Assembly: GCA_031278215.1 (NCBI GenBank)
Contig: JAITKV010000011.1
Coordinates: 58,063 to 122,062 of the forward strand
Direction: 5' to 3'
Length of the DNA: 64,000 bases
Source: Spirochaetaceae bacterium
Lineage (GTDB): Bacteria; Spirochaetota; Spirochaetia; Treponematales; Breznakiellaceae
Made by a program: the position numbers and the translations under genes. The notes under the pieces are model-generated. The model saw nothing but the letters and a program-made list of their open reading frames with translations, did not search any database and was not told where the DNA came from. This document shows, piece by piece, positions 41,748 to 62,771 of this stretch. How positions within the stretch are numbered: position 1 is the stretch's first letter; each line of letters begins with the position of its first letter.

Positions 41748-42098
41748 ATGACAAAACATTTTCAAGGCGCCGATATCCGGGACGCCTTTAGCAGGAATTT
41801 ACGGCTTTTTCGAAACCGGAAAAAACTTTCCCAGTTTGCCCTTTCAAACCTGGCGGGGCTTGCCCATAACTTTGTTAATGATATTGAAAACAGAAAAAAA
41901 TGGGTGTCCCCCGATACCATTGCAAAGCTTGCGAAGGCCCTTAACGTGGAGCCCTATCAACTGTTTATGACCAATCCCCTGGACGGAAATCAGACAGAGC
42001 GGCTCCATGGGTATCTTGACGAACTGAACGAACGCTTTGCCGAAGCGGTGGGGGAAATTAAAACGGCCTTTCTCCCCCGGAGGGGCAAGAAACCCTAG
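41748..42098 (+). CDS. XRE-family helix-turn-helix regulator
   Basis: NLRLFRNRKKLSQFALSNLAGLAHNFVNDIENRKKWVSPDTIAKLAKALNVEPYQLF. Confidence 0.88.
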   Translation: MTKHFQGADIRDAFSRNLRLFRNRKKLSQFALSNLAGLAHNFVNDIENRKKWVSPDTIAKLAKALNVEPYQLFMTNPLDGNQTERLHGYLDELNERFAEAVGEIKTAFLPRRGKKP

Positions 42099-42189
42099 CC
42101 GCGTGGAATTGTACCGGAAACCCGCCTGCCGGCGGGGCTTGGGGGAAGTGTATAAACCGCCGTCTTTAAAGCGCCGATATGTAAAGGGT

Positions 42190-43755
42190 ATGCATGCACT
42201 CACGGTTTTATACGGCGGCGCCCTGCACCCCTTGGCCTTTAAGCCCCTTTACGGCGGGCAAAGCGCCTTTTCCCTTGCCTTGGAACGGGCGGGTTCTTTT
42301 CCGGGGACGGAAAAAATTCTGGTCCTGGCGGAGGACGCCCTGGATCTGCCGGAAATTCCCGGACAGCTGCTGACCAGGCAAAAGTGGACCGTCCCGGATC
42401 TGCTCCGGGTCCTTTCGGAAGAAAGTTCCGCGTACGATTTTGCCTACTATGCCTGGGCGGACACCCCCTTTCTTGACCCTTCTTTGGCGGAGCGGATAGC
42501 CCTTCGGCACACGCGGTTTGCGGCGGATTATTCCTACGCCGACGGCTGGCCCTACGGATTGGCCCCGGAACTGATCACCTCTTCCGCTGCGGGGGTGCTG
42601 TGTAAAATCTCTGGCGAAGCCGACGCCGGGCCGGTTAAGCGGGACGCCCTCTTTGGGGTTCTGCAGAGGGATATTAATTCCTTCGACATAGAAACAGAAA
42701 TTTCCCCGGTGGATCTCCGGTATCACCGGATCTCCCTAAGCGCCGACTCCCGCCGCAATTTCCTGCTGCTGCAGCGATTTGCCGAAGCCCGGTGCGGCGG
42801 CGCCGCCGATGCGCAGCGGATCATCGCGGAACATCCTGAGTTCCTTCGAACCCTGCCGGCCTTTTTCCCCATCCAGATTTCCCGGCCCTGTCCGCCCGGG
42901 GGGGGCCGCACCGGAAGCTGCGGTATCTGCCCCTATCCCCGGCTTTCGGCCCGGAACGGCGCGGCCGCCCGGGATTTTCTTGATCCGGATGAATTTAAAA
43001 AACTCCTGGATAAAATCGAAGAATTTGCGGGGGACGCGGTGATCGATCTTTCCCCCTGGGGAGAACCGGCCCTTCATCCCCGGCGGGACGAGCTTATCCG
43101 CGCCGTGCTGGCACGGTCGGCTTTTTCCCTGGTGATAGAAAGTTCCGGCGCCGGCTGGGACAGGGGGACCCTGGAAGCCCTGGCCCGGGATGCGCCCGTA
43201 AAACCGGGATCCGGGGAAAGCCGGTTTTTTTCCTGGATTGTTTCGCTTAACCCCGGGGATCTTCCCCGGGACAAGTCGGAAAAGACTTCTTTTGTGGAGG
43301 CCCTGGTTTCGCTTTTTCCCCGGAAGCCGGGAGAAGAGGACCGGGTATACGTGGAGGCCGTTAGAACCGCCGGCGCCGAGGACCAGATCGAACAGTTTTA
43401 CCGGGCCTGGAAATCCTGGGGGGCCGAAAAAAACGGGCCGGGAATTATTATCCAGAAATACGACGATTTTTGCGGCTTTCTTCCCCGCCGGCAGGGAGTG
43501 GACCTTTCTCCGGTGGAACGCCGCCCCTGCTGGCATATTATGAGGGATTTTCCGGTTCTTATCGACGGCGCCGTCCCGGTTTGCCGGGAGGATCTGGAAG
43601 GTAAACTGGGAACCCTGGGGAACGCCCTAAAGGATGATCTGGAAACTATCTGGGAAAAAGGAAAAGAACGGTACCATCTTCACTGCAAAAAAGATTATGG
43701 CGAACCGGGGAGCCCCTGTAGGGTCTGCGATGAGTACTATACCTTCAACTTTTAA
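42190..43755 (+). CDS. Spiro-SPASM-type protein: NTP-transferase-like N-terminus, radical-SAM-like core, C-terminal SPASM-like region
   Basis: LTVLYGGALHPLAFKPLYGGQSAFSLALERA...ADTPFLDPSLAER; GSCGICPYPRLS; VIDLSPWGEPALHPRRDELI; RPCWHIMRDFPVLIDGAVPVCREDLEGKLGTLGNALKDDLETIWEKG...CRVCDEYY; start trimmed to MHALTV. Confidence 0.75.
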   Translation: MHALTVLYGGALHPLAFKPLYGGQSAFSLALERAGSFPGTEKILVLAEDALDLPEIPGQLLTRQKWTVPDLLRVLSEESSAYDFAYYAWADTPFLDPSLAERIALRHTRFAADYSYADGWPYGLAPELITSSAAGVLCKISGEADAGPVKRDALFGVLQRDINSFDIETEISPVDLRYHRISLSADSRRNFLLLQRFAEARCGGAADAQRIIAEHPEFLRTLPAFFPIQISRPCPPGGGRTGSCGICPYPRLSARNGAAARDFLDPDEFKKLLDKIEEFAGDAVIDLSPWGEPALHPRRDELIRAVLARSAFSLVIESSGAGWDRGTLEALARDAPVKPGSGESRFFSWIVSLNPGDLPRDKSEKTSFVEALVSLFPRKPGEEDRVYVEAVRTAGAEDQIEQFYRAWKSWGAEKNGPGIIIQKYDDFCGFLPRRQGVDLSPVERRPCWHIMRDFPVLIDGAVPVCREDLEGKLGTLGNALKDDLETIWEKGKERYHLHCKKDYGEPGSPCRVCDEYYTFNF

Positions 43756-44686
43756 CGATACCCTGCCCTCGTATACCGCCGTGGGGGGGACGGAACGGGC
43801 CGCTTCCACGGGGCTCTCCGTGGTGCTTCTTAACCGGGGGGGGCGCTATCCCCGGCGGACCCTTTTTCAGGAATTGGAAAAGGGGGGATTTGACTACATT
43901 CTTTCCATAGAGGGGCCTCAGGAACGCTACGATCTGGAGGATCTTTCCAGCCGCTTTCCCTTTGTGCGCTTTATCCTGCTTAAAGAAGCTATCAGCCCCG
44001 GCGAAGGGATCAACCTGGCGGCCGCGGAGCTGTCCAGCCCCCTTTTCTTCGTCCTCTGGAACGATTACCGGCTTTTTAACGGCCTGGGGGCGGCCAAAAT
44101 AACGGAACTGTTCGCCCGGAAACGGCTTTGTACGGTTCCGGCGGTTCAAAATTCCCGGTTTGAACTTCTTCATACCCTTACTATGCCGGTACTGTACAAA
44201 AGAACCGTCAAGGTTTTGCCGGGGGCGCCGGAATGGGAAAACCAGGCGTCCCTGTTCCCCTATGAATACATGGGGGTCTACGACCGGGAACGGTTTTTGC
44301 GGCTGGGCGGCTTTGACCGGAATATCCTTCATCTTCACTGGCAGCTTATGGACTTTGGATTTCGCGCCCACCTCTGGGGAGAGGAGATCCGGTCCACCCA
44401 GATTATCCGCCTTGTCTTTGACGGCGCCCTGCCGCCGGCAGATAATACCACAGACGCCTCTTACCGCCTTTTTTATCTTAAAAACCTGGCCCCGGTCTTC
44501 CGGCTGGATCACGCCCACATACCCTTTCGTAGTTTTCCCGGCTACCTGGCAAAGGCGGGCTGGGACCCCGTAAGCGCCTGGATCGAGTTTTCCCGGGAAC
44601 GCCGCTGGGTCCGGGAAAACCGGAACCGTTTCTGCCGGGACGCCCGGACGGTGGCGGATCTGTGGGAACGGAGGCCGGAACCATGA
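43730..44686 (+). CDS. Glycosyltransferase-like protein
   Basis: LSVVLLNRGGRYPRRTLFQELEKGGFDYILSIEG, SPLFFVLWNDYRLFNG, RLGGFDRNILHLHWQLMDFGFRAHLWG; GT2-like layout; overlaps stop of previous ORF. Confidence 0.55.
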   Translation: MSTIPSTFNDTLPSYTAVGGTERAASTGLSVVLLNRGGRYPRRTLFQELEKGGFDYILSIEGPQERYDLEDLSSRFPFVRFILLKEAISPGEGINLAAAELSSPLFFVLWNDYRLFNGLGAAKITELFARKRLCTVPAVQNSRFELLHTLTMPVLYKRTVKVLPGAPEWENQASLFPYEYMGVYDRERFLRLGGFDRNILHLHWQLMDFGFRAHLWGEEIRSTQIIRLVFDGALPPADNTTDASYRLFYLKNLAPVFRLDHAHIPFRSFPGYLAKAGWDPVSAWIEFSRERRWVRENRNRFCRDARTVADLWERRPEP

Positions 44687-45375
44687 CCGCCCTGATCCTC
44701 CAGGGCCGGCTGGATTCCCGCCGGCTTCCGGGTAAAAGCCTGCTGCCCCTGGACGGCGAAGCCCTGATCTTCCGGGTCATGGAAGCCCTGGCTTTAGTGC
44801 CCTGCGATCTCCGGATCCTGGCCTGCCCCGAAGACGCCGGGTTTTCTTTTCTGCCCTTGGCAAAACGGGCGGGGTTTGAACTGTATACGGGGCCTAAGGA
44901 AGACGTGCTGGCCCGGTATTGCGGGGCCATAGGCCGGTTTTTTCCGAAGCCCCTGGGGGATTCTTCCCGGATAATCCGGGCCACCGGGGACAATCCCTTT
45001 GTCTTTACCGACGCCGCGGCGGCCATCGCGGAGGAATCCGCCGCCCGGGGGGCGGATTACGGGGGCTCTGCGGGGCGTCCCCTGGGGGCGGGGGTGGAAG
45101 CGGTAAGCGCTCCGGCCCTTCTCCGGGCAGAAAAAGAGGCGGAGAAAGAGGAGGACCGGGAGCATGTCTGCCCATACTTGTACCGCCGGCCGGATCTGTT
45201 CCGGCTCCACCGGCCCCTGGCCCCCCGGCGCTGGCAGGATGATCCGCGTAGGCCCCGGCGGCTTACGGTGGACACCCCGGAGGATTACCGCCGGGCCGAA
45301 ACCTTATACCGGAATTTAAACAATACGCCGGGCCGGCACCTGGGGGGGGCGATCATGGAGGCCGCAGGCCTATGA
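44683..45375 (+). CDS. SpsF/CMP-sugar-synthetase-like nucleotidyltransferase
   Basis: ALILQGRLDSRRLPGKSLLPLDGEALIFRVMEAL, EDVLARYCGAIG, RATGDNPFVF, RLTVDTPEDYRRAETLY. Confidence 0.82.
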   Translation: MTALILQGRLDSRRLPGKSLLPLDGEALIFRVMEALALVPCDLRILACPEDAGFSFLPLAKRAGFELYTGPKEDVLARYCGAIGRFFPKPLGDSSRIIRATGDNPFVFTDAAAAIAEESAARGADYGGSAGRPLGAGVEAVSAPALLRAEKEAEKEEDREHVCPYLYRRPDLFRLHRPLAPRRWQDDPRRPRRLTVDTPEDYRRAETLYRNLNNTPGRHLGGAIMEAAGL

Positions 45376-47240
45376 TCCGTCCCAGGGATGTACCGGATCC
45401 CGTGGAAAAACCGGGGGCCGTTCTTGTGGTTTCCGCCTGCGGAACGGGCAGGGGAGGGGGCCACCTTTTCCGCGGCCTTGCCCTGGTTAAGGCCCTTCGC
45501 TCCCGGGGTAAAGCGGCCTGGCTGCATCCCGGAGACCCGCAAATTCCCGAAGAATTTCTGGTCTCCGCGGAAGACCTGGAGGGCGGGGAATGGTCCCTTA
45601 TTGTTCTGGACCGGTACCGCTGCCCCGCCGGGGAGCTTCGCCGGTGGCTTTCCCTGGGGCCGGTGCTGGGAATCGACGAGGGGGTGTCCCGAAGGGACTG
45701 CGATTTTCTTATCGATCTGCTGCCGAACACCTGCCGGGAAGCCCCGAACATCTGCGATCCTTCCCTGCTCTTCCTGCCCCGGCGGCGCCGGCCCTCGTTT
45801 TTTGGAACCGCCTCCGGGGTCCGCAGGGCGCTTATCAGCTTTGGGGCCGAAGATTCGGCGGGGCTTAGTTTGCCGGCGGCCCGGATTCTGCGGACCCTTG
45901 GATCTGCGGAGCTTTCCGTCACGGTGGTGCTGGGCCCCCTGTACGAACAGAGGGAAAAAACCCGGCGGGCCCTGGAAGACGAGGGGGCGGCGGTTATTGA
46001 CGGCGGCCCGGATCCCGAAGCTTTCCGGGAATCTTTGGCGGATTACGATTTGCTGATAACCCATTTTGGAATTACCGCCTTTGAAGCCCTCTATGCCCGG
46101 CTGCCGGTGCTGCTGCTTAACCCCGGACCCCGCCACGAAGCCCTGGCCCGCCGGGGAGGATTGTATTCCGCGGGCTGGGGCCGCGGGGGGTGCAAAAAGC
46201 TTTCCCGGCTTTTCCGGTCCGGGGATCCGGGGGCCGCGGCCGCGGAATACGGCGAAAGGGCCCTTCGGCGCTGGATGCCCGGGGCGCCGGGGGACCTGGC
46301 GGACCTGGTTTTAAGGGCCGCGCCGTTTGTACACCGCCGCTGCCCTCTCTGCGGGAACCGGAGCGGCTGCCGCCGGGGGCTGGTCCGTTTTCCCCACAGA
46401 AGCTACCGGCGCTGTTCCTGCGGCATGGTGTACATGGACAGGCTTAGCCCCCCTCTGCCGGAATATACGGAGGAATATTTTTTTTCCCGTTACCGGGAAC
46501 AGTACGGAAGAACCTATTTGGAAGATTTTTCCCGGATCCAGGGCCAGGGGGAACGGCGGCTTACGTTTATCCGGGGCCTCTTAAAAAAAAGCCGCGGCCC
46601 CGACGGAGCCCCCGGCCCCTCCGCCAAAAAAATCCCCCGGCTCCTGGACATAGGCTGTGCATACGGCCCCTTCCTGGCGGCCGCCCGGAACGGCGGCTTC
46701 GAGGTCCTGGGGCTGGACCCCGCGAAAGAGCCGGTCCGGTACATCCGGGAAAACCTGGGCATGAATGCGGTCCGGGGCAGTTTTCCCGACGACATTCCCG
46801 GAGCTCCGGGGGAATTTGAGGTTATTACCCTTTGGTACGTGATCGAACATTTTAAGGAGCCCCGCAGGGCCCTGGAGGCGCTTAACCGGCTCCTGGGGGC
46901 CGGGGGAATTCTGGCCTTTTCCACCCCCTCGTTCCGGGGTATTTCCCGGCGAAGTTCCCTTAGGAATTTTTTGGACCGGAGCCCCGGGGACCACTGGACC
47001 ATTTGGGATCCCCGCCGCTGCGGAAGTTTTTTACGCCGCTACGGATTTTGCCTGAAGAAGCGGGTGATCACCGGCCATCATCCCGAACGGTTCCCCCTTA
47101 TCGGGGCCCTGTTACGGGGGCCGGCCTTCCGGTTTTTTTTAATGATAAGCCGGCTGTTCGGACTGGGGGACACCTTTGAAGTCTACGCGGTAAAGAGGGC
47201 GGAACTGCCCGCGGCGGGAGGGGTCCATGGGAGGGGCTAA
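45372..47240 (+). CDS. Fusion: SpsG/PseG-like sugar-nucleotide hydrolase domain + class I SAM methyltransferase
   Basis: N-terminal SACGTGRGGGHLFRGLALVKALRSRG...ITHFGITAFEALYARLPVLLLNPGPRHEALARR; zinc-ribbon-like CPLCGNRSGC; C-terminal RLLDIGCAYGPFLAAARNGGFEVLGLDPAKEPV...VITLWYVIEHFKEPRRALEALNRLLGAGGIL. Confidence 0.78.
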   Translation: MIRPRDVPDPVEKPGAVLVVSACGTGRGGGHLFRGLALVKALRSRGKAAWLHPGDPQIPEEFLVSAEDLEGGEWSLIVLDRYRCPAGELRRWLSLGPVLGIDEGVSRRDCDFLIDLLPNTCREAPNICDPSLLFLPRRRRPSFFGTASGVRRALISFGAEDSAGLSLPAARILRTLGSAELSVTVVLGPLYEQREKTRRALEDEGAAVIDGGPDPEAFRESLADYDLLITHFGITAFEALYARLPVLLLNPGPRHEALARRGGLYSAGWGRGGCKKLSRLFRSGDPGAAAAEYGERALRRWMPGAPGDLADLVLRAAPFVHRRCPLCGNRSGCRRGLVRFPHRSYRRCSCGMVYMDRLSPPLPEYTEEYFFSRYREQYGRTYLEDFSRIQGQGERRLTFIRGLLKKSRGPDGAPGPSAKKIPRLLDIGCAYGPFLAAARNGGFEVLGLDPAKEPVRYIRENLGMNAVRGSFPDDIPGAPGEFEVITLWYVIEHFKEPRRALEALNRLLGAGGILAFSTPSFRGISRRSSLRNFLDRSPGDHWTIWDPRRCGSFLRRYGFCLKKRVITGHHPERFPLIGALLRGPAFRFFLMISRLFGLGDTFEVYAVKRAELPAAGGVHGRG

Positions 47241-48840
47241 GAAGGGGCGAATTTTAATTCTTGGGGCCGGGATCATGCAGGGGCCGGCGATCCGCAGCGC
47301 CAAGGACATGGGATTGGAAACGGTGGTAATCGACGGGGATCCCCAGGCGCCCCTGGCCGCGGCGGCGGATCGTTTTGAATGCATCGACCTAAAGGACATC
47401 CATGGCATCGAGGCATTGGCCCGGACCCTTATGGCAGAGGGGGGTCTGGACGGCGTTATGACCGCGGGAACCGATTTTTCCGCCTCCGTGGCCTGGACCG
47501 CGGAAAAAACCGGCCTGCCGGGAATTTCTTACGAAAGCGCGCTGGATGCGTCGGATAAGGAGCGGATGCGCCGCCGTTTTGCCCAGGCGGGCCTTCCCTC
47601 GCCGGCCTTTACGGTGCTGCGCGAAATTCCCCCGGCGGGGGATCTTTCCGTGGGGTACCCGGCGGTGGTTAAGCCGGTGGACAATATGGGGGGCCGGGGC
47701 TGCCGCAGGGTGGATACGTTTGCGGAACTCCGGGACGCGGTGGAAGGGGCCCTGCGGTTTTCCCGGTCCCGCCGGGCGATTGTGGAAGAGTACATGGAGG
47801 GGCCGGAGTTTTCCGTGGATGCGGTGATATACCGGGGGGACATACGAATTTGCGGCCTTGCGGACCGGCATATCCGGTTTCCCCCCTACTTTATCGAAAT
47901 GGGCCATACCATGCCCACCGGAATCCCCCGGAAGGACCAGGACGCCATAGTCGCGTTGTTTATCCGGGGCGTCCGGGCCCTGGGGATTGACACCGGCGCG
48001 GCCAAGGGAGATATAAAACTTACCAAAAAGGGACCCATGATCGGCGAAATCGCCGCCCGGCTTTCCGGGGGCTATATGTCCGGCTGGACCTATCCCTACG
48101 CATCCGGGGCGGCGCCCTGCCGGGGGGCCCTCTGCGCCGCCCTGGGGATCCCCCCGGAGGGGCTGGAACCGCGGCGAAATTGGACCAGTGCGGAACGGGC
48201 CTTTATTTCCATTCCCGGCCTGGTCCGGTCCATCGAGGGGATCGACGGGGCCCGGAAAATTCCGGGGATCAAGGACGTTTTCTTCCGGGCAGAACCGGGG
48301 CGGCGTATTTCGTTCCCGGAAAACAACGTATCCAAGGGGGGGAATGTGATCAGCGCCGCCCCGGACCGGGAAACCGCGGTTACGGCGGCGGAAGAGGCCG
48401 CCCGGAGCATCCGGATCCGGCTGGCCGCCCCGGATCCGCAAACCGAAGCGTTCCTCCGGGGCCCCCTAAAGGCGCCCTGCTTTCCGCCCCCGGCCTTTGC
48501 CCTAAGCGAAAAACTTCTCCAAGAACTGATGGAACTGCCGGAAACAGCCCCCCGGCGCCCGGCTTTTCCGGCCCCCCAAAGCCCGGCCCCGGAAACTTCC
48601 CGGGGATTCCGTCCTTTCCGGGGTTTTTTGCACTCGAATTTACAGGATTATATGGGACGGAATCCCCGGGAGACCCTGGACGCGGTTCGGGAACTTACCG
48701 GAGTGGCGCCGGAAACCCTTCCCCTGGGCCGGGGCTTTTGGATTGCCCTGGTCCGGGGGGGATACCAGGGCGGGGCGTATTATATAGATACAGTGATAAA
48801 GGATCCGGCTGCGGCCGGCGCCGGGGGGGAATTGCCGTGA
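47227..48840 (+). CDS. ATP-grasp superfamily protein (carbamoyl-phosphate-synthase/PurK-like)
   Basis: ILGAGIMQGPAIRSAKDMGLETVVIDGDPQAPLAAAADRF, YPAVVKPVDNMGGRGCRRVDTFAELRDAV, AIVEEYMEGPEFSVDAVIY. Confidence 0.82.
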   Translation: MGGAKKGRILILGAGIMQGPAIRSAKDMGLETVVIDGDPQAPLAAAADRFECIDLKDIHGIEALARTLMAEGGLDGVMTAGTDFSASVAWTAEKTGLPGISYESALDASDKERMRRRFAQAGLPSPAFTVLREIPPAGDLSVGYPAVVKPVDNMGGRGCRRVDTFAELRDAVEGALRFSRSRRAIVEEYMEGPEFSVDAVIYRGDIRICGLADRHIRFPPYFIEMGHTMPTGIPRKDQDAIVALFIRGVRALGIDTGAAKGDIKLTKKGPMIGEIAARLSGGYMSGWTYPYASGAAPCRGALCAALGIPPEGLEPRRNWTSAERAFISIPGLVRSIEGIDGARKIPGIKDVFFRAEPGRRISFPENNVSKGGNVISAAPDRETAVTAAEEAARSIRIRLAAPDPQTEAFLRGPLKAPCFPPPAFALSEKLLQELMELPETAPRRPAFPAPQSPAPETSRGFRPFRGFLHSNLQDYMGRNPRETLDAVRELTGVAPETLPLGRGFWIALVRGGYQGGAYYIDTVIKDPAAAGAGGELP

Positions 48841-49904
48841 AGGGCGCTTTGCCGCTTTCGCTGGCGGTTTTCTGCGCCGCGGTTCTTTGGGCCGCGCCCC
48901 TCTATGCCCAAAATCCCGAAAAAAGCTATTCCCTGGACGAAACCCTTCGGGAACTGGGTTCCTCCCTGCGCTGGGACCCCTTTCTTTCCGCGGGGATCTT
49001 AAGCGCCGGGGACCACCGGCTTAGTTTTTACACGGGAGCCCCGGGAGAACAGGGCCTGGTCCTGCTGGACGGCAGGGAACTGTTTAACCTGGCCCTGCCC
49101 TACAGGGAAGGGGGAAGCCTCCGCTTTCCCAATTCCTTTGTACAGACCGGCAAGCAGGCCCTGTCCAGGGCCGCCGCGGAAGATTCGGTCCGGTTCAGGG
49201 TGGCGGCAATTATTGTGGATCCCGGCCACGGGGGCAAGGATCCGGGGGCGGTGGGAACCCATGTGATAGGGGGAAAAACCCTAAAATCGGTAGAAAAAGA
49301 CATTACCCTTACGGTTTCAAAGAAATTGGCGGCCCTGCTGCAATCCGCCTACCCGGAAAAACGGGTGCTCCTTACCAGGGACGGCGACACCTATCCTACT
49401 CTGGAAGACCGGGTTAATATCGCCAATACCGTGTCCCTGAAGGATAACGAAGCGATCATCTATATTTCTATCCATGCCAATGCGTCGTTAAATAAAACCG
49501 CCCGGGGCTACGAGGTCTGGTATCTTCCCCCGGAGGCCCGGCGGGAACTTATAGACCGGGACAAATACGCGGACGCCGCGGAGGTTATTCCCATCCTTAA
49601 CGCCATGCTGGAAGAAGAATTTATCTCCGAAAGCACCCGAATAGGCCGGTTTATCCTAGACCGGTTCCGGGAAGCCTTTGGAAACCGCCTTCCCTCCCGG
49701 GGCCTAAAGGCGGAAAACTGGTACGTGGTCCGGAACGCCCGGATGCCGGCGGTGCTGGTGGAACTGGGTTTTGTAAGCAACCCCGAAGACGCCGTCCTTA
49801 TGGCGGACCCGGAGTACTTGAAATTGTTTTCCGAAGGGTTGTATAAAGGAATTGCCGATTTTGTGGCGGAATTTGAACAATCCGGAGGCTATATCGCTCC
49901 CTAG
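48837..49904 (+). CDS. N-acetylmuramoyl-L-alanine amidase (Amidase_3)
   Basis: IIVDPGHGGKDPGAVG, VLLTRDGDTYPTLEDRVNIAN, ISIHANASLNKTARGYEVWYL, VLVELGFVSNPEDA; GTG start overlapping upstream TGA. Confidence 0.92.
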   Translation: MKGALPLSLAVFCAAVLWAAPLYAQNPEKSYSLDETLRELGSSLRWDPFLSAGILSAGDHRLSFYTGAPGEQGLVLLDGRELFNLALPYREGGSLRFPNSFVQTGKQALSRAAAEDSVRFRVAAIIVDPGHGGKDPGAVGTHVIGGKTLKSVEKDITLTVSKKLAALLQSAYPEKRVLLTRDGDTYPTLEDRVNIANTVSLKDNEAIIYISIHANASLNKTARGYEVWYLPPEARRELIDRDKYADAAEVIPILNAMLEEEFISESTRIGRFILDRFREAFGNRLPSRGLKAENWYVVRNARMPAVLVELGFVSNPEDAVLMADPEYLKLFSEGLYKGIADFVAEFEQSGGYIAP

Positions 49905-49940
49905 GAGCCTGTGGCGCTTGCAGGTTTTTGCGCCCATAAA
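49904..49940. repeat. Intergenic repeat fragment (left-half homologue of 3144-3300)
   Basis: TAGGAGCCTGTGGCGCTTGCAGGTTTTTGCGCC directly after the amidase stop, same position relative to a stop codon as at 3144. Confidence 0.6.
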
Positions 49941-49962
49941 CCGGACGGACAGGGGATGGAGC

Positions 49963-50445
49963 ATGGGATTTTTTAAGCAGATCCGCCGTTTGGCGTACCT
50001 GGCGGCGCTTCTTGGCTATACGTTTTTTGAGCTGTTGCATTCAGGATTAACCAGGCGCACCTTTGAATTTCCCGCCCTGGCGAACGGAGAACTGGTGGTA
50101 GAAGACCGAATGCTCTATAAGGCTGATTCTCTGGAACAGAACATCAAGAATTACGTGGAGGAACTTATTTTAGGCCCCATTTCGATAACCTGCGCCCCCC
50201 TGTTGACCAAGGGGGTTAAGCTGCAATCGTTTATGTACCGGGACGGAACGGTATACGCCGATTTTTCGGGGGACGCGGCCCTGCCGGTCCAGGGGGGGGC
50301 GCCGCTCTTTGAAAGCTTTTTGGCCCTAAACCGGGGAATCAGACGGAATTTTCACTCGATTTCGAATGTAAAACTCTTTGTAAACGGGAACGAGGTTTTT
50401 TTTAGCGAATTTGACCGGATATTTGGGCCGAATCCGCGGAATTAG
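49963..50445 (+). CDS. GerMN-domain-like membrane/exported protein
   Basis: KNYVEELILGPISITCAPLLTKGVKLQSFMYRDGTVYADFSGDAALP...ISNVKLFVNGNEV. Confidence 0.6.
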   Translation: MGFFKQIRRLAYLAALLGYTFFELLHSGLTRRTFEFPALANGELVVEDRMLYKADSLEQNIKNYVEELILGPISITCAPLLTKGVKLQSFMYRDGTVYADFSGDAALPVQGGAPLFESFLALNRGIRRNFHSISNVKLFVNGNEVFFSEFDRIFGPNPRN

Positions 50446-50539: not shown

Positions 50540-51595
50540 ATGAAACGAATATTCATTCTTTTAACCATCGCAGTGATGGCTGTTGGGTTGTTTGCTGAAG
50601 AAGCGGTTCTTATTGACTTTACGAAGCTTTCGGCGGATATTCTTGCCCCTGAAGACGGACAGCCGACTCAGAACCGGGCGACAATAATGGATTACGGCGC
50701 TGTGGCCGGAGCCAGCTTTACCGATGAGCAAAAGCAGATTATGAAGACTTCTCTAGCCATAAGGAACTGGAATATAATCCTGGCGTCTTCTTCCAGAACC
50801 GTACAGCGGGAAGTCCTTAGCTATGCGGAAGAAGCCGACTCCAAACAGTACGGAAAGGTGCTGGGTATAAGGGTTAATTTTCCTGTGGAACCGTGGAATT
50901 CCTGGGCCCTGATAAGGCCGCCCTTTGAAATTCCCGCCTTTGAAGCCAGGGCCGAAATTGACGATCAGGGAAACGTTACCGGTACCGGCGAAAGCGGTGT
51001 AAGCGGACTTTCCCGGTTTGAAGGCCCCGATGAAGACCAGGACGGAAAACCCGACTACGGTCTTGGGGTGGTTAAAAATGTGGGCACCATTAAGGCCATT
51101 GCCGTAAATGTATACGGCCTACAGTTTCCCCACAGCCTTTCGGTGATCCTTATTGACAACGAAGGGAACGAAAAGACCATGTTTGTGGATTACCTTAACT
51201 TTGACGGCTGGGCCGAAATTACATGGCAAAATCCGGCCTATGTGGCCCAGGTGCGGAACCGGGAATTACGCCTGTACCCCCTGTACCCCACCTCCACGCC
51301 CTTTGTAAAATTCGGGGGCTTCCTGATTAAGCGGGACGCCGATAAGGCCGGCGGGGACTTTATCGCCTATTTCCGGGACGTTAAAATCATCTACGATAAG
51401 GCGGTTCTTGATACCGATCCGGATATCGACAATGAAGGACTGTGGCACATCATTCAGACCAGAGAAGAAGCCAAGAAGAAGTGGGAAATGAGCCGCTTTG
51501 GACAGCAGCAGATTCTTCGGTATCTGGAACAGCAGAAACAAGCTACGGAAGATACCTTTACTCCTTCTCCTAAGGTTGGCGGCGGCACGAACTAA
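50540..51595 (+). CDS. flaA: Flagellar filament outer layer (sheath) protein FlaA
   Basis: Signal peptide; VLIDFTKLSADILAPE..., WNIILASSSRTVQREVLSYAEEA, GIRVNFPVEPWNSWALIRPPFEIPAFE, NVGTIKAIAVNVYGLQFPHSLSVILIDNEGNEKTMFVDYLNFDGW. Confidence 0.95.
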   Translation: MKRIFILLTIAVMAVGLFAEEAVLIDFTKLSADILAPEDGQPTQNRATIMDYGAVAGASFTDEQKQIMKTSLAIRNWNIILASSSRTVQREVLSYAEEADSKQYGKVLGIRVNFPVEPWNSWALIRPPFEIPAFEARAEIDDQGNVTGTGESGVSGLSRFEGPDEDQDGKPDYGLGVVKNVGTIKAIAVNVYGLQFPHSLSVILIDNEGNEKTMFVDYLNFDGWAEITWQNPAYVAQVRNRELRLYPLYPTSTPFVKFGGFLIKRDADKAGGDFIAYFRDVKIIYDKAVLDTDPDIDNEGLWHIIQTREEAKKKWEMSRFGQQQILRYLEQQKQATEDTFTPSPKVGGGTN

Positions 51596-51768: not shown

Positions 51769-52992
51769 ATGGCTTTTGTTCTTCCGGATCGTAACCAGCT
51801 TCAGAAAAAGTATAAAAAAGCGCTTCCGGCCCGGGATCATATTTTAAAAGAGATAACCGGAATCCTGGAAACCGCGGTTCAACCTCTGTCTTCCCGGCCC
51901 ACTATTAAGGGCCGGATCAAGGAATTTGACAGCTACTATAAAAAATACCTTAAACTTCTTAAGGAAACTCCGGGGATCGATCCGGTAATTACCGATTTGC
52001 TGGCCCTGCGGATTATTTGTCCTTTCCTGGAGGATCTTTCGGTGGTAGAAAAGCTTATCCGGGGGAATTTTTCCGTAACGGAGCTGGACAGAAAGGGCGC
52101 CCATTTTAGCTTTAAAGAATTCGGGTACGAATCGGTACACCTGCTTATACAGATCCCCCCGGATTTAACGGCCCAATGGGGGCCCTGCGGGGTCGAGGCG
52201 GTGGAAATTCAGGTGCGGACGATTCTGCAGGACGCCTGGGCGGAGGTTGAACACGAACTGGTGTACAAGGCGGAATTTACCCCCTTTGACGATCCCATGA
52301 AGCGCCGCCTGGCGGCGGTCAACGCAAGCCTTTCTTTGGCGGACAGTATTTTCCAGGAAATCCGAAGCTACCAGCGCCAGCTTAACCGGGAAATGGGAAA
52401 ACGCCGGAATTCCTTCTACCGTAAGATAGAAGATTCCACCGACGGCCTGCTTTTTGAAGAAGAACACGAAACGGAAACAGAAATGCCCGCCCTGCCGGAG
52501 CCTAATTACCAGAGCACCATCGATGATCTTCTGTTAAACGCCCTGTACGCCCATAACCAGAACCGTTTTGCCGAGGCCATTGCCTTTTACAGCCGGATTT
52601 TGGACATGAACCCGGCGCCTTCCATTGTATCCTTAATCTACAAACACCGGGGTATGGCGTATTTTGCCCAATCCAAATACGAGGAAGCCATTGACGATTT
52701 TACCAAATCTTTAAAATTCGACAAAAAATCCTATAAATCCGCGTATTACCGGGGGGTGGTTAGGTCGGTACTGCGGGAATATGCCGGGGCGGTGGACGAT
52801 TTTACCCTTTCCCTGGAAATTAACCCCTACCAGAATTTTACCCTGTACCGCAGAGGCCAGGCCTATTATCATCTGGAAGATTATCCGGCCGCCCTGGCGG
52901 ACTGCAACGCTTCCCTGGCCCTGGACCCGGAATTTGAAACCGCCCTGCGGTTCCGCTCCCTTTTGTTGAATAAACTTAAGATGCGGGGATAG
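51769..52992 (+). CDS. RelA/SpoT-synthetase-domain protein with C-terminal TPR repeats
   Basis: DLLALRIICPFLEDLSVVEKLI, FGYESVHLLIQ, EIQVRTILQDAWAEVEHELVYK; TPRs IVSLIYKHRGMAYFAQSKYEEAIDDFTKSLKFDKKSYKSAYYRGVV. Confidence 0.88.
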   Translation: MAFVLPDRNQLQKKYKKALPARDHILKEITGILETAVQPLSSRPTIKGRIKEFDSYYKKYLKLLKETPGIDPVITDLLALRIICPFLEDLSVVEKLIRGNFSVTELDRKGAHFSFKEFGYESVHLLIQIPPDLTAQWGPCGVEAVEIQVRTILQDAWAEVEHELVYKAEFTPFDDPMKRRLAAVNASLSLADSIFQEIRSYQRQLNREMGKRRNSFYRKIEDSTDGLLFEEEHETETEMPALPEPNYQSTIDDLLLNALYAHNQNRFAEAIAFYSRILDMNPAPSIVSLIYKHRGMAYFAQSKYEEAIDDFTKSLKFDKKSYKSAYYRGVVRSVLREYAGAVDDFTLSLEINPYQNFTLYRRGQAYYHLEDYPAALADCNASLALDPEFETALRFRSLLLNKLKMRG

Positions 52993-55009: not shown

Positions 55010-56266
55010 TTAGGGTTCTTTTTTCCGCTTTGAGAGCCCATATCTCCAGCCCACGTTGATGAAGGGCCGCAGAAAACCGGGCTGGGGCGCGTCGGGGGAA
55101 AAGAGGTGGGCATAGTCCGCCCCCAGTTCCGCGTAGAGGAAGGGGAGGAACCGCCATTCCAGGGAAAGGCCCAGGGAGGCCAGGGGAACCCAGCTTGTAA
55201 GGGGTTCGCTGGTGTAGTTTTGGTAATCAAACACCAGGCGCAGGGGCGCGGCGTTTATGCCCCCTCTTAGCCGCGCGTTAAAGGCAAAGCCCCGCAGGGG
55301 AAGCGTTTTCCGGTACAAGAGGCCCGCTTCGGCCCCGGTGATAAACGCGGAAAAATCGGCGCCGCCGCTCCCGACGCCGCTCCCGCTAAGATAGTTCAGG
55401 CTTATGTTGGCCTCGGCGCCCAGGAAGCCCCAGGGCCGTTTAAGGAATATAAAGGCCCCCCGGATATCCATGCCCAGGGGGGCAAATTTTTTATCCAGGG
55501 CGTCGAAAAGATAACCGTACAAAGGCAGAAGGGGCGCGTAACCGGCGGAAAGATGCAGATCGTAGGAACTGCTAAAAAGGTCAACATCCACAGGCCCCGC
55601 GGATGCTTCCAGGCCGCCGGGGTTTCTGACAAGGATCCGGTACGCGCCGGGCCGCAGTTCCGCGGGGTTAAAGGACAGGGAGGCTTTGTCCCCTTCTGGA
55701 AGATATGTTTTTGCCGCGATGGGCTGCGCGGAATCCTCTTCCAGGGGAACCAGATACGCTTCTCCGGCTTCTATAAAATTTGCCCCCGTAAGCTTAAACT
55801 CCCAGCCGTCTCCGTCGTGGATGTACAGGGCGTCCGGCGTGTGGGCCGCGATTTCCGGCCGCAGGGCCAGGATAATGCTAAAAGAGGCCCAGTTGGTGGC
55901 GTATTCAAACTGGTTTAGCAGATTGAATACCCGCACCTGGTAGCGGTATCTTCCGGGCCCCAGGGATATATCGACATAGCTTCTGTCCGTGCTTTCCCGG
56001 TGGATTTCGGCAAAGGCGCCCGAGCGTTCGCGTTCCACCACCACCTCGTAACGCGCGGCGTTTTCATCGTCCGGCCACCTAAGGCGCTGTACGATGGTCT
56101 GCTCCCCCGTTTCGCTCTCGCGGATAAAATACGCGCCCGTGGTTTCCTGGGCCGCCGCGGGCGCCGCGAGGATCCCCGCCGCGAAGAGCAGGGCGGCGAT
56201 GATCCTGAAGCCCGGAAAAAAGGGCGCGGCGGATTTTTGTACCATCCTTGTGTTGATTTTTGTCAT
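55010..56266 (-). CDS. Exported FnIII-like/beta-structured protein with barrel-like C-terminal half
   Basis: Signal peptide; QRLRWPDDENAARYEVVVERERSGAFAEIHRESTDRSYVDISLGPGRYRYQVRVFN; overlaps upstream repeat-lipoprotein stop. Confidence 0.55.
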   Translation of the reverse strand: MTKINTRMVQKSAAPFFPGFRIIAALLFAAGILAAPAAAQETTGAYFIRESETGEQTIVQRLRWPDDENAARYEVVVERERSGAFAEIHRESTDRSYVDISLGPGRYRYQVRVFNLLNQFEYATNWASFSIILALRPEIAAHTPDALYIHDGDGWEFKLTGANFIEAGEAYLVPLEEDSAQPIAAKTYLPEGDKASLSFNPAELRPGAYRILVRNPGGLEASAGPVDVDLFSSSYDLHLSAGYAPLLPLYGYLFDALDKKFAPLGMDIRGAFIFLKRPWGFLGAEANISLNYLSGSGVGSGGADFSAFITGAEAGLLYRKTLPLRGFAFNARLRGGINAAPLRLVFDYQNYTSEPLTSWVPLASLGLSLEWRFLPFLYAELGADYAHLFSPDAPQPGFLRPFINVGWRYGLSKRKKEP

Positions 56267-57288
56267 AGAACCCAGCCTTCGTCCTCCGCACTGTCAAGCG
56301 CATCCCCTTCCCCTGCGGTACTTTCCCGCCATTTTACGGGGCTACTACTAACATACACCGCGTGGCCGTGGCCGGCGGCCATCTCACTACCGTCGTTGTC
56401 CTTCACACGGTTTTTCATTCCATCGTCGTCCACGTCCGTACCGTAAATGACCCCCCCTGCTTTTGTAAAGGCGCCGCCGCTGTCCACATACACCCCGCCG
56501 CCGTAGCCGCCGTTGCCGGTGGCGGTATTGCCGCTGATAGTTCCGCCGTTCATGATAAATCTGCCGCCGGTCACATATACCCCGCCGCCGCTGCCGCTGC
56601 CTAAGGCGCGTTCCGCCCTGTTCCCGCTGATAGTTCCGCCGTTCATGGTAAAGCTGCCGGTCCCGGCCACATACACCCCGCCGCCGCCGCTGGCGCTGGT
56701 ATTGCCGCTGATGGTTCCGCCGTTCATGGTAAAGGCGCCGCCGTCCACAAACACCCCGCCGCCGGTTCCGTTAGTATGGTTATTCCGCAGTTCGGTCCCG
56801 TCCTGCATCGTACAGGAACGGTTCACTACCTTTATCAGAGGAGGACTACCCGGAACCGCGCCGCCGTCCAGGACCAGGGTTCCTCCTTCGGGCCGGCCCA
56901 GGGTTAAATCGCCGCTTGAACCATTTACCTCGAAGAAGATGTCCGTAGGAAAGCCGTCTGGCCGGGTAATGACCGCCGTAACGCCGGGCGCGGCGGTAAT
57001 GGTAAGGGGCCGGCTTACCCTTATCGTGGCGCTTCCGGCGGGGAAACTTTTTGCCAGGGCGATAAGCTGCGCATCCGTGTGTTCAACGGCGTTTCTCAGT
57101 TCCTCCCAACTGCTTACCGGGGTCATGGCGCTTAAAAACGCTATGCTGTCTTTTAGCGGCAGGTTCCAGTTATCGCAGGCCGCAAGGACAAGGAAGAGGG
57201 GCAGGAACCGCCGCAGCGGTTTTTTTGCCCCGGCGCCGGAACCCGCTTGTCCGGGGGCCTGTACCGGCCGCGCGTTGATTTTTGTCAT
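56263..57288 (-). CDS. Beta-helix repeat lipoprotein (FTMNGGTISGNTA repeats), paralogue B
   Basis: Lipobox LVLAAC; repeats GGGVYVDGGAFTMNGGTISGNTSAS; C-terminal HAVYVSSSPVKWRESTAGEGDALDS. Confidence 0.75.
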   Translation of the reverse strand: MTKINARPVQAPGQAGSGAGAKKPLRRFLPLFLVLAACDNWNLPLKDSIAFLSAMTPVSSWEELRNAVEHTDAQLIALAKSFPAGSATIRVSRPLTITAAPGVTAVITRPDGFPTDIFFEVNGSSGDLTLGRPEGGTLVLDGGAVPGSPPLIKVVNRSCTMQDGTELRNNHTNGTGGGVFVDGGAFTMNGGTISGNTSASGGGGVYVAGTGSFTMNGGTISGNRAERALGSGSGGGVYVTGGRFIMNGGTISGNTATGNGGYGGGVYVDSGGAFTKAGGVIYGTDVDDDGMKNRVKDNDGSEMAAGHGHAVYVSSSPVKWRESTAGEGDALDSAEDEGWVL

Positions 57289-58433
57289 GAATCCCAGCCT
57301 CCGCCCCCCGTACTGTCAAGGTCATCCCTTTCCCCTGCGGTACTTTCCCGCCGTTTTGAGGGGGTAACATACACCGCGTGGCCGCAGGGAGTGCCGGAAT
57401 TGTTCGTCACAAGATTGTTCATTGCGCCGCCGTTCATACCGTAAATGACCCCCCCATATTTTTTAAAGACGACGGTCGGCCCGTTCACATACACCCCGCC
57501 GCCGTTGAAGGCGGCGGTATTGCCGCTGATGGCCCCGCCCTTCATGGTAAAGGCGCCGCCGTTCACATACACCCCGCCGCCGTTGAAGGCGGCGGTATTG
57601 CCGCTGATGGCCCCGCCGTTCATGGTAAAGCTGTAGCCGGTCAGCCCGGCCACATACACCCCGCCGCCGCCGCCGCTGGCGCTGGCGCTGGTATTGCCGC
57701 TGATAGTTCCGCCGTTCATGGTAAAGGCGCCGGTCGGCCCGGCCACATACACCCCGCCGCCACCGCTGGCGGCGGTATTGCCGCTGATAGTTCCGCCGTT
57801 CATGGTAAAGGCGCCGTCCACATACACCCCGCCGCCGTTGCCGGTGGCGGTATTGCCGCTGATAGTTCCGCCGTTCATGGTAAAGCTGTAGCCGGTAGCC
57901 ACATGCACCCCGCCGCCGTCATGGTTATTCCGCAGTTCGGCCCCGTCCTGCATCGTACAGGAACCGTAGCTTATCGCTATCAGAGAAGAACTACCCGAAA
58001 CCGCGCCGCCGTCCAGGACCAGGGTTCCTCCCCCGGGCCGGCCCAGGGTTAAATCGCCGCTTCCTAAATGGGTTCCTACCTCGAAGAAGCTGCCCGTAAA
58101 GCCGGTTGGCCGGGTAATGACCGCCGTAACGCCGGGTGCGGCGGTAATGGTAAGGGGCCGGCTTACCGTTATCGTGCCGCCTCCGGCGGCGGGGAAACTT
58201 TTTGTCAGGCCGATAAGCTGCGGCCCGGCGATGGTGTCAACGGCAGATTTCAGTTCCTCCCAACTGCTTACCGGGGTCATGGCGTTCAAAACCGCTATGC
58301 TGTCTTTTACCGGCAGGTTCCAGTTGTCGCAGGCGGTAAGGGCAAGGAAGAGGGGCAGGAACCGCCGCAGCGGTTTTTTTGCCCCGGCGCCGGAACCCGC
58401 TTGTCCGGGGGGTTTTATTCCCTGTGTGTTCAT
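57285..58433 (-). CDS. Beta-helix repeat lipoprotein (FTMNGGTISGNTA repeats), paralogue A
   Basis: Near-identical N-terminus to paralogue B (KKPLRRFLPLFLALTACDNWNLPVKDSIAVLNAMTPVSSWEEL); repeated GGGVYVxGGAFTMNGGAISGNTAAFN. Confidence 0.75.
   Translation of the reverse strand: MNTQGIKPPGQAGSGAGAKKPLRRFLPLFLALTACDNWNLPVKDSIAVLNAMTPVSSWEELKSAVDTIAGPQLIGLTKSFPAAGGGTITVSRPLTITAAPGVTAVITRPTGFTGSFFEVGTHLGSGDLTLGRPGGGTLVLDGGAVSGSSSLIAISYGSCTMQDGAELRNNHDGGGVHVATGYSFTMNGGTISGNTATGNGGGVYVDGAFTMNGGTISGNTAASGGGGVYVAGPTGAFTMNGGTISGNTSASASGGGGGVYVAGLTGYSFTMNGGAISGNTAAFNGGGVYVNGGAFTMKGGAISGNTAAFNGGGVYVNGPTVVFKKYGGVIYGMNGGAMNNLVTNNSGTPCGHAVYVTPSKRRESTAGERDDLDSTGGGGWDS
57481..57636. repeat. Two near-identical 78-bp in-frame tandem repeats in the repeat lipoprotein gene
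   Basis: CCGTTCACATACACCCCGCCGCCGTTGAAGGCGGCGGTATTGCCGCTGATGGCCCCGCC(C/G)TTCATGGTAAAG starting at 57481 and 57559; encodes 26-aa unit. Confidence 0.85.
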
Positions 58434-58472
58434 CGTCTCTTCCTCCGTCGATGGTTTTTCGTAAACGGGCTG

Positions 58473-60479
58473 TTAACGCCCGTACAGATCGCCGATGTCT
58501 TCCAGCCTGGTCCGGCGCAGGGCCGGTATATCCACGGTAAAAGAAGCTTCCCCGGCGGGGCTTTGTTCTTCCCCCGATCCACCCCGGCGCAGGGCCCGTA
58601 CCTGCCAGCGGAACCGGCCGTTGCTTAGGATCGACAGATCGCTAAGAAGGTACGAGGGCGTTTTAGGCCGGACAGAAAGGATCTCCCGGCCCTCGGCGGA
58701 AAGAAGGACAAAGGTATAGCCCTCCGCCCCGTCCACCGCCGTCCAGCTAAAGGAAATGCCGTCGATGCCCCGCAGCCTGTCCGCGTCAAAAAGAAAATTG
58801 TCCGCGGGGGCGCCGGGGCGGGGGGCGGGAAGGGACCGGGAACGGGAAACGGCTGCCTGCGGGGGCGCCGTTTCGGCGGGCCTGCGTCTTAGCTCAAAGG
58901 ATACCACCGCGGGAAGGCTTTCCTGCCGGGTGGACTCCGGGGTCTGGCCGGAAAAGGCCTGGACGGTCCAGCGGTACGGGCCGTCTTCGTACGCGGCCAG
59001 GGAGACGGCGGCGGAGGTTCCGGTAAGGGTTTCGGAACGCAGGAGCCGGCCGCCGCTTTGCCCCTGGTAAAAGCGGAACTCGTAATAGGCGGCGCCGTCC
59101 ACGGGCTGCCAGCGGAAGACCGCTTGGTCCTGTCCGGCGCCCGGGGGGCTGCCGACGGGGGCGGGGAAGGGAAGGGAAGCGGCCACGGTAAGACGCCGCG
59201 GAGGGGAGTTCTGACCCCCGGCGGAAACCCGCCAGTACCAGCCGCCGGGGGCAAGGCGGCGGATCTGCCATGTTTTGCCGGACACCCTTTCGTCCACTTC
59301 CAGCCGGGCAAAGTCTTCCGCGGCGCTTACCTGAAACCGCGCCTCCCTTACCGGGGCTTTCCAGGTAAAACGCAGGTCGGGCACGAGGGCCTCCGCGACG
59401 GTGTACCCCGCGGGGGGAAAGGTCGCCCGCAGGGAGGCGTCTTCCGGCGGGGGGCTAAAGGCCGCGGGGGGCGGAGGCAGGGGCCCTTCCTCCACCAGGA
59501 AAGAGCCCCGGGTTCCCGCCGGGGAAGGGCCCTGGTACACGGGGCTTATCCGCCAGTACCAAAGACCCGGCCGGGGAACGGATGCGGAGACGCTGGTTAC
59601 CCTGGTTTGCAGGCTTAGGGCGGGATTTTCCATGGCCGGATTATCCGCCGCTTCCAGAATATAATACGCGGGAGGAGGCTCGTTTCCGGCGGGGCCGCTC
59701 CAGCGAAAGCGGATCTCCGGCAGCCGGTTTTGATACCGGAGGACTTCTCTTTCTCCGGGGCTAAAGAGAATTGGCGGCGAAAGATTCGCCGGCGGCGAAA
59801 AGTTCGCCGGCGGCGAAAAGTTCGGCCCGGTGGAACCGGGAAGCTCCGGCCCGGCGCGCCCCGGCCCGCCGGAAGCGGCCGCGCCGGTGGAAAGGGAAAA
59901 GCCCTCCCCGGCGGAGGCTTCGCGGCTGCCGCCGGCGAATCTTTCGCCGCCGGCGCCCGATACGCTCGCGGTTCCTTCATCCACCCGGACCTGTAACAGC
60001 TCCGCGTCCGCGCCGGCCGTTACCCGGCCCCCGGAATTCACCCGCACGCTGTTTTTACCGGAGACAATCAGCACATCCGTGTCCCGGGCGTTGATGTTTA
60101 CCACGCCGCCGCTGATTTCCACCTGGGGCGTGTTGTCTTCAATTACAATATGGACCAGGCTGTTTTCCGCAACCTCGATGACGCTGCCGGAAGAAAAATT
60201 GACGGCGGCCGCGGAAAGCTCCCCGGTGCGGATATAGTCCCCCGAATAGACGGGGCTGTCCTGCTTAAGCCTGTCCCACAGGACCCGGTCGGCAAAGCGG
60301 CGCTGGGCCGCGCGGCGTTTCCAGTTTACCGTTCCCATGGGCTCTTCGTTGTACCGGCGAAGGGAGCGGTTAAGGTCTATCTGGAAGCATGCAAAACAAA
60401 GCGCCGCGCCGGCCAGGCAGAGCAGGACGGCCAGAAAGTCGGCCCGTTCAGCCGATCTTGTATTTTTTTTCTTCGCCAC
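58473..60479 (-). CDS. FecR-domain membrane-anchored protein with about four FnIII-like repeats
   Basis: DSPVYSGDYIRTGELSAAAVNFSSGSVIEVAENSLVHIVIED...VRVNSGGRVTAGADAELLQVRVDEGTASV (FecR); repeated FRW..V/YYxFRF...YRWTVQAF modules. Confidence 0.75.
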   Translation of the reverse strand: MAKKKNTRSAERADFLAVLLCLAGAALCFACFQIDLNRSLRRYNEEPMGTVNWKRRAAQRRFADRVLWDRLKQDSPVYSGDYIRTGELSAAAVNFSSGSVIEVAENSLVHIVIEDNTPQVEISGGVVNINARDTDVLIVSGKNSVRVNSGGRVTAGADAELLQVRVDEGTASVSGAGGERFAGGSREASAGEGFSLSTGAAASGGPGRAGPELPGSTGPNFSPPANFSPPANLSPPILFSPGEREVLRYQNRLPEIRFRWSGPAGNEPPPAYYILEAADNPAMENPALSLQTRVTSVSASVPRPGLWYWRISPVYQGPSPAGTRGSFLVEEGPLPPPPAAFSPPPEDASLRATFPPAGYTVAEALVPDLRFTWKAPVREARFQVSAAEDFARLEVDERVSGKTWQIRRLAPGGWYWRVSAGGQNSPPRRLTVAASLPFPAPVGSPPGAGQDQAVFRWQPVDGAAYYEFRFYQGQSGGRLLRSETLTGTSAAVSLAAYEDGPYRWTVQAFSGQTPESTRQESLPAVVSFELRRRPAETAPPQAAVSRSRSLPAPRPGAPADNFLFDADRLRGIDGISFSWTAVDGAEGYTFVLLSAEGREILSVRPKTPSYLLSDLSILSNGRFRWQVRALRRGGSGEEQSPAGEASFTVDIPALRRTRLEDIGDLYGR

Positions 60480-62322: not shown

Positions 62323-62407
62323 GGATTCTATTCCTCCTCCGGTTTCATATTCTACCCTACGCGCCGCCGCACGGGGGAGGGTACTACAGTACAATATGAA
62401 TAATTTC

Positions 62408-62506
62408 GGTATATTTTCATACGATTTCCTCCTTAAACAAACAAACGAAGAACAGTATACCGGAACGGCGGACACAACGCAAGGGTATATTTTCATGCGA
62501 TTTCCT
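62408..62506. repeat. Duplicated 23-bp motif GGTATATTTTCAT(A/G)CGATTTCCT in cyclase leader
   Basis: Copies at 62408-62430 and 62484-62506, one mismatch, offset 76 bp. Confidence 0.85.
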
Positions 62507-62771
62507 GCGGCGGCCATCCCCCTGTACAATCAGGATTATGATGATGAGGGCAATCCGCCCCGGGAATGGTTTATACACAGGTGGGTTTTTAGGCGCCCTA
62601 AAAAACCGTATCAAAAATAGTTGACTCCGGGCCCGGAAAGCTATATATTACTATTATTGTCAGAAATACCGGCATAGTGTGTCCTCGTTTCAAGACTTAA
62701 AGATACCCATTCCCGCGTAACGTTAAATTCTGTACAAGACCGCAATCTTAGGTTGCATTTCAGGAGAAAGT

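Follow-up and report, generated by a model that had tools for sequence, protein, structure and literature searches.

In Bacillus subtilis, a legionaminic acid pathway comprising SpsM, SpsC, SpsD, SpsG, SpsE and SpsF has been demonstrated genetically (PMC7439481), and in Shewanella oneidensis the sfmABCDE cluster, with a Maf gene nearby, encodes a NeuB-type synthase, an S-adenosylmethionine (SAM) methyltransferase and an ATP-grasp_4 protein (PMC3765264). The sugar on the flagellins of this Shewanella is a 274-Da mono-acetyl pseudaminic acid bearing a nitrogen-free, variably O-methylated outer group (PMC3765264). In spirochaetes, the FlaB flagellins of Treponema denticola bear a 450.2-Da glycan essential both to motility and to the assembly of the filament (PMC9481697). 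Here we analyse a run of genes in a 64,000-nucleotide stretch of DNA (hereafter, the window) from a Spirochaetaceae bacterium (assembly GCA_031278215.1, contig JAITKV010000011.1), which extends from the gene of a spiro-SPASM protein to that of a predicted ATP-grasp ligase. We consider it probable that this block represents the cytoplasmic part of a spirochaete pathway glycosylating flagellin with a nonulosonic acid, the other steps being encoded elsewhere in the genome. The evidence for this function is good but indirect, and what would be new is a variant of flagellin nonulosonate glycosylation. The genes of the block and its neighbours, all on the + strand, are as follows.

42190..43755, +, spiro-SPASM protein (TIGR04321; start 42190 best supported by alignment)
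43730..44686, +, glycosyltransferase of GT-A fold (start 43730 from an alignment of 22-35 relatives)
44683..45375, +, SpsF, predicted cytidine monophosphate (CMP)-nonulosonate (cytidylyl)transferase (PF02348, 8.8e-23, 81.7 bits)
45372..46361, +, SpsG/PseG-like uridine diphosphate (UDP)-sugar hydrolase domain, residues ~1-330 (TIGR03590 PseG, 1.3e-8)
46362..47240, +, SAM methyltransferase domain fused to SpsG (PF13489, 2.7e-20)
47227..48840, +, predicted ATP-grasp carboxylate-amine ligase (LAL_C2 PF18603, 1.6e-17; ATP-grasp_4, 2.6e-13)
41748..42098, +, XRE/Cro-type helix-turn-helix regulator (HTH_3, 2.5e-9); accessory
48822..49904, +, N-acetylmuramoyl-L-alanine amidase (Amidase_3, 3e-47; start uncertain); not assigned to the pathway
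49921..50445, +, GerMN/Germane-domain protein (PF10646, 1.8e-6; start uncertain); conserved neighbour
50540..51595, +, FlaA flagellar sheath protein (PF04620, 2.8e-68); conserved neighbour

From spiro-SPASM to ATP-grasp, each gene as read from the sequence overlaps the next by 4-26 bases in an operon-like arrangement; the SpsF start at 44683 overlaps the glycosyltransferase stop as ATGA, and SpsG and the methyltransferase are encoded by one fusion gene (45372-47240). SpsF scores over the PF02348 cut-off. The SpsG domain matches PseG at 34.8 bits, under the equivalog cut-off, and a GGGH..R motif is read in its sequence. A first-pass annotation made from the sequence alone had described this overlapping run, from XRE through ATP-grasp and on into the amidase, GerMN and flaA genes, and all of these genes are present.

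The spirochaete system shares with the B. subtilis Sps pathway a dehydratase, an SpsC aminotransferase, an SpsG hydrolase, an SpsE synthase and an SpsF cytidylyltransferase. It differs in that acylation would probably be carried out by the ATP-grasp protein rather than an SpsD acetyltransferase, in having the SpsG-fused methyltransferase and spiro-SPASM, and in its proposed target, flagellin instead of the spore crust. The NeuB-type synthase, SAM methyltransferase and ATP-grasp_4 protein are common to the Shewanella sfmABCDE cluster, which however lacks SpsF/SpsG, spiro-SPASM and the glycosyltransferase, contains a thiamine pyrophosphate enzyme and a reductase, and has an outer group of 236-264 Da. 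By analogy, the Shewanella cluster supports the chemistry proposed here and limits any claim of novelty. Genome G214 (2,843,201 bp), which we take to be T. denticola ATCC 35405 and thus the bearer of the 450.2-Da system, holds orthologs of spiro-SPASM, the glycosyltransferase, SpsF, SpsG, the methyltransferase and ATP-grasp; unlike in the window, SpsF, SpsG and the methyltransferase form a single 881-residue protein, the ATP-grasp ortholog (599 bits; about 2,247,684-2,249,360) lies ~310 kb away, and spiro-SPASM is devoid of its radical-SAM cysteines. In genome G045 (1,139,633 bp), presumably T. pallidum Nichols, the block is accompanied by NeuB, a dehydratase-SpsC pair and an ATP-grasp gene at a separate site.

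The window genome (G000) is 2.1 Mb and 80% complete, and its nearest named relatives are Treponema/Spirochaetaceae metagenome-assembled genomes, most likely from termite guts as judged from isolate names. Conservation was surveyed in 59 near relatives, using the TIGR04321 family cut-off, and in 198 Spirochaetota genomes, 151 of them good, using a match threshold of E<=1e-20. Spiro-SPASM is found in 49 of the 59 relatives and in 183 of the 198 phylum genomes. Counting same-strand genes downstream of spiro-SPASM at 49 loci from 16 spirochaete families, SpsF proves the most constant partner (44/49), followed by SpsG (37/49), the glycosyltransferase (36/49), the methyltransferase (34/48), ATP-grasp (29/48), the amidase (29/47) and FlaA (29/46). 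The cluster is therefore co-conserved, the observation on which the first-pass annotation had beforehand staked its proposal. The block is very old and phylum-wide, and its order is not due to chance. Distant families have spiro-SPASM and SpsF alone, with or without SpsG; the glycosyltransferase and ATP-grasp are seen inside the window's class, and the SpsG-methyltransferase protein additionally in family f14, while Treponemataceae-like genomes (f3) carry SpsF, SpsG and the methyltransferase as one protein of 820-900 residues. The f14 locus (L133), from a distant class, reads SPASM-SpsF-SpsG/methyltransferase followed by amidase, GerM and FlaA with no ATP-grasp, an order indicating that the flaA linkage predates the insertion of ATP-grasp or that ATP-grasp was lost. 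Two termite treponemes carry ~2-kb inserts between the SpsG-methyltransferase and ATP-grasp genes (L049/L135 and L046), one of which holds an XRE-like gene and two small open reading frames. The XRE regulator upstream of the block, counted as a cluster member by the first-pass annotation, has that position in just the window and the congener L032/L069, is missing in the congener L033/L070, and was rejected as part of the system for want of conservation.

The remaining pathway genes lie elsewhere. The window genome has, at G000:C9, a 500-residue dehydratase (CoA_binding_3 plus Polysacc_synt_2) adjoining a DegT/PseC-like aminotransferase, a pair shared by most flagellate relatives. Both congeners and 182 of the 198 phylum genomes possess a NeuB with a SAF domain. 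Maf (PF01973) matches four times in the window genome, and most flagellate genomes have three or four Maf genes. Dehydratase, SpsC, NeuB and Maf, together with SpsG and SpsF of the block, would make up a full CMP-nonulosonate route, as in B. subtilis.

Among the near relatives, the distribution of spiro-SPASM and ATP-grasp follows that of flagellin. Five of the 59 relatives (G043, G046, G049, G052 and G058) have no flagellin, and the same five are without spiro-SPASM over the cut-off, ATP-grasp, and Maf over the cut-off (G058 shows one weak Maf trace); two of them, G046 and G049, keep NeuB. The 96% complete genome G047 departs from this pattern: it has flagellin, ATP-grasp and Maf and shows no spiro-SPASM over the cut-off. 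In raw counts over the 151 good genomes, spiro-SPASM and NeuB occur together in 141 and are both missing in 8, with spiro-SPASM only in 2 and NeuB only in 0. Of the eight good genomes that lack spiro-SPASM, seven belong to the flagellate, Borrelia-like family f7 (main chromosomes 907-921 kb where read); the eighth, G198, has no FlaA and no flagellin. T. denticola FlaB is glycosylated in the motifs VEVSQL and DRIAS, which are substituted in Borrelia (PMC7431986). We aligned 58 flagellin reading frames, with some genes represented twice. Nearly all sampled lineages that carry the pathway retain the serines of both motifs, and the window genome's own flagellin keeps both (VEVSALIDEVDRIAS); in 7/7 f7 genomes they are replaced by Glu and Asp.

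The reported structure of the T. denticola glycan agrees with the enzymes of the block. In Kurniyati 2017 it is reported to be a mono-N-acetyl, pseudaminic-configured nonulosonate bearing a 2-methoxy-4,5,6-trihydroxyhexanoyl group on N7, and the masses of the two parts, 274.12 and 176.07 (methoxy-trihydroxyhexanoyl), sum to 450.19. N7 comes from the amino group set by the SpsC/PseC transaminase, a group normally acetylated by PseH. Such an N7 acyl product would need a carboxylate-amine ligase and a methyltransferase, both of which are in the block. The ATP-grasp protein scores over the cut-offs of PF18603 and PF13535, its K149, E274 and R278 are invariant in the alignment, and its closest solved structures are PDB 4dim (8e-39) and the L-amino-acid ligase 3vot (1.6e-37). 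The glycosyltransferase of the window reached no Pfam family, and sequence searches gave weak matches to NTP_transf_3, GT2, HddC and TagF; since its family could not be placed by sequence, we turned to fold prediction. The AlphaFold2 (AF2) model (predicted local distance difference test score, pLDDT, 79.6; predicted TM-score 0.83), which includes the motif GGFD..I....WQLMDFGFR, has a GT-A fold, and its best Foldseek matches are polypeptide GalNAc-transferases (8e-10, TMq about 0.55), a likeness at the level of fold only.

From these genes we infer the following order of reactions. A long UDP-N-acetylglucosamine-type 4,6-dehydratase and an SpsC-type aminotransferase, both encoded elsewhere, would generate a UDP-4-amino sugar; the ATP-grasp enzyme would join a carboxylic (poly)hydroxy acid through an amide bond to the amine made by SpsC, taking the place of the GNAT acetyltransferase PseH/SpsD; and the methyltransferase domain may then add an O-methyl group to the acyl group. 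SpsG would remove UDP, SpsE/NeuB would condense the sugar with phosphoenolpyruvate to a nonulosonic acid, and SpsF would make the CMP-sugar, which a Maf-type transferase, possibly with the glycosyltransferase of the locus, would transfer to Ser/Thr residues of the core flagellins FlaB ahead of their export. The role of spiro-SPASM would probably be non-catalytic, in partnership with SpsF or with the chain of enzymes. In the T. denticola genome, an FGGY carbohydrate kinase gene, which overlaps, and an iron-type alcohol dehydrogenase gene directly follow the SpsF-SpsG-methyltransferase gene (L185:2519-5358), and genes of the same size are found at L083 and L086; in that genus, these two enzymes might produce the hydroxy acid.

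The spiro-SPASM protein of the window belongs to TIGR04321 (483.3 bits, cut-off 250; profile positions 2-510 of 510 covered), a family whose name carries no function, and the literature searched gave no paper on 'spiro-SPASM' or on the TP locus tags. It combines a cytidylyltransferase-like N domain (~1-225) with a BtrN/anSME-like radical-SAM/SPASM body, as indicated by profile matches (BtrN 4m7t, 1.5e-15; cytidylyltransferase 6oew, 3.6e-7) and by Foldseek searches with the AF2 model (pLDDT 80.2; BtrN, 6.3e-8; 6oew of Leptospira borgpetersenii, 5.1e-7). When the two sequences are compared, the N domain is without the R..SxRLPGK loop present in the SpsF of the block, and it probably has no cytidylyltransferase activity. 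The radical-SAM cysteines of the window protein read CX9CX2C instead of the canonical CX3CX2C (Pfam Radical_SAM 16.8 bits, below 29.5), and its SPASM domain scores over the cut-off (PF13186, 22.8 against 21.5 bits). Among 44 sequences surveyed across the phylum, 43 have all four SPASM cysteines and one has three. On a tree built without the cysteine columns, the radical-SAM cysteines underwent at least six state changes, five of them forced by well-supported branches; deep branches of this tree are weak and several tips long, which makes the count of losses approximate. Repeated change of the radical-SAM cysteines alongside retention of the SPASM cysteines suggests that the shared role is probably something other than radical chemistry, and a pseudoenzyme or scaffold would be the simplest reading. 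SpsF, as the most constant neighbour and a homolog of the N domain, would be its natural partner. We tentatively propose, as a possibility we rate below even, that spiro-SPASM is a phylum-specific fusion of a dead cytidylyltransferase with a radical-SAM/SPASM body, and that it partners SpsF obligatorily in flagellin glycosylation, in a structural or a redox-sensing capacity.

Several observations weigh against flagellin nonulosonate glycosylation as the function of the block. For the window organism and the termite-gut spirochaetes, the analysis covers genes, from which the sugar is predicted. The SpsC/PseC-like copy of the window genome has one in-frame TAA (G000:C9:52993-54147; L181, L214), which is either an assembly error or a real lesion; the 80% complete window genome itself gave no strong SpsE/NeuB match; the matches to PseB, PseC, PseG and PseI are all below their equivalog cut-offs; and no PseH/SpsD/LegH N-acetyltransferase was seen in the block, the genomes not having been searched for one. 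ATP-grasp, the methyltransferase and the glycosyltransferase are absent from the block in distant families. The co-distribution counts carry no kinship correction and reflect few evolutionary events, and no p-value is claimed for them. Family f8 carries the block, yet every flagellin sampled from it keeps just the first acceptor serine and has the second replaced; in two of the four Brachyspira-like flagellins, Asn stands in the first position.

Other destinations and chemistries have to be weighed against this assignment. NeuB/Sps pathways often serve surface glycans, NeuB persists in the flagellum-less G046 and G049, and the amidase and Germane-domain genes adjoin the locus, all of which would suit a nonulosonic acid made for a surface polysaccharide or glycolipid, with the proximity of flaA incidental. 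Yet spiro-SPASM and ATP-grasp track flagellin and Maf, not NeuB alone, loss of the FlaB acceptor serines goes with loss of the pathway, and T. denticola FlaB carries a glycan of fitting mass, so that we regard an envelope product as unlikely. Modification of the FlaA sheath protein in place of the FlaB core would accord with flaA lying downstream in 29 of the 46 testable loci, but seems very improbable: the title of Wyss 1998 names flagellins, not sheath proteins, as glycosylated in T. pallidum and relatives, the block lies away from flaA in T. denticola-like, T. pallidum-sized and Brachyspira-like genomes, and the Borrelia-like genomes retain FlaA while lacking the block. FlaA was accordingly considered and disfavoured, and although encoded downstream it is probably not the glycan acceptor. 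The first-pass annotation had foreseen an unusual activated sugar for envelope or flagellar glycosylation; its direction holds, with the FlaB core a more likely target than FlaA or the envelope.

The chemistry invites a similar choice. That the ATP-grasp enzyme makes an aminoacyl-nonulosonate by coupling an amino acid with the sugar would agree with the L-amino-acid ligases among its best solved relatives and with Clostridium botulinum flagellin, which carries a glutamyl-type legionaminic acid; we nevertheless judge this rather unlikely, as the 450.2 Da of T. denticola and the 510, 524 and 538 Da of Shewanella fit nitrogen-free acyl groups and a methyltransferase is fused within the same block. 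Ligation of a carboxylate to an amine, as first annotated, thus stands, and by analogy with T. denticola and Shewanella a hydroxy-acid amide appears more likely than the amino-acid-linked sugar also suggested there. Spiro-SPASM could instead catalyse an essential radical-SAM step, the oxidation or deoxygenation of the sugar or its acyl chain, in the manner of BtrN or DesII. BtrN and anSME are its nearest relatives by sequence and fold, with DesII lower in the list, and CX3CX2C is intact in most members, but the cysteines are gone in 17 of the 44 sequences, among them those of T. denticola and the T. pallidum-sized genomes, which keep the rest of the block, and in the window's clade the loop between the first two cysteines is stretched from the usual 3 residues to 6-9. 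An essential radical enzyme is disfavoured by this repeated cysteine loss, and we hold it to be doubtful.

Beyond the locus, a RelA/SpoT-domain protein with tetratricopeptide repeats is encoded right after flaA (51769-52992) and in the same place in most relatives. On the - strand, 55010-60479 holds four open reading frames of 341-668 residues with no Pfam match, adjoined by a HAMP-guanylate/adenylate cyclase gene (60448-62529).

We found no open paper that assigns the ligase and methyltransferase steps of the spirochaete flagellin glycan to genes. The block offers candidates for both in one conserved locus, also in a T. pallidum-sized genome, and it fits the loss of acceptor serines in Borrelia-like flagellins. 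Spiro-SPASM would represent a rare and testable situation, a radical-SAM family whose conserved function is independent of the radical cluster. For the oral spirochaete T. denticola, the block offers a testable genetic explanation of the methylated sugar on its flagella.

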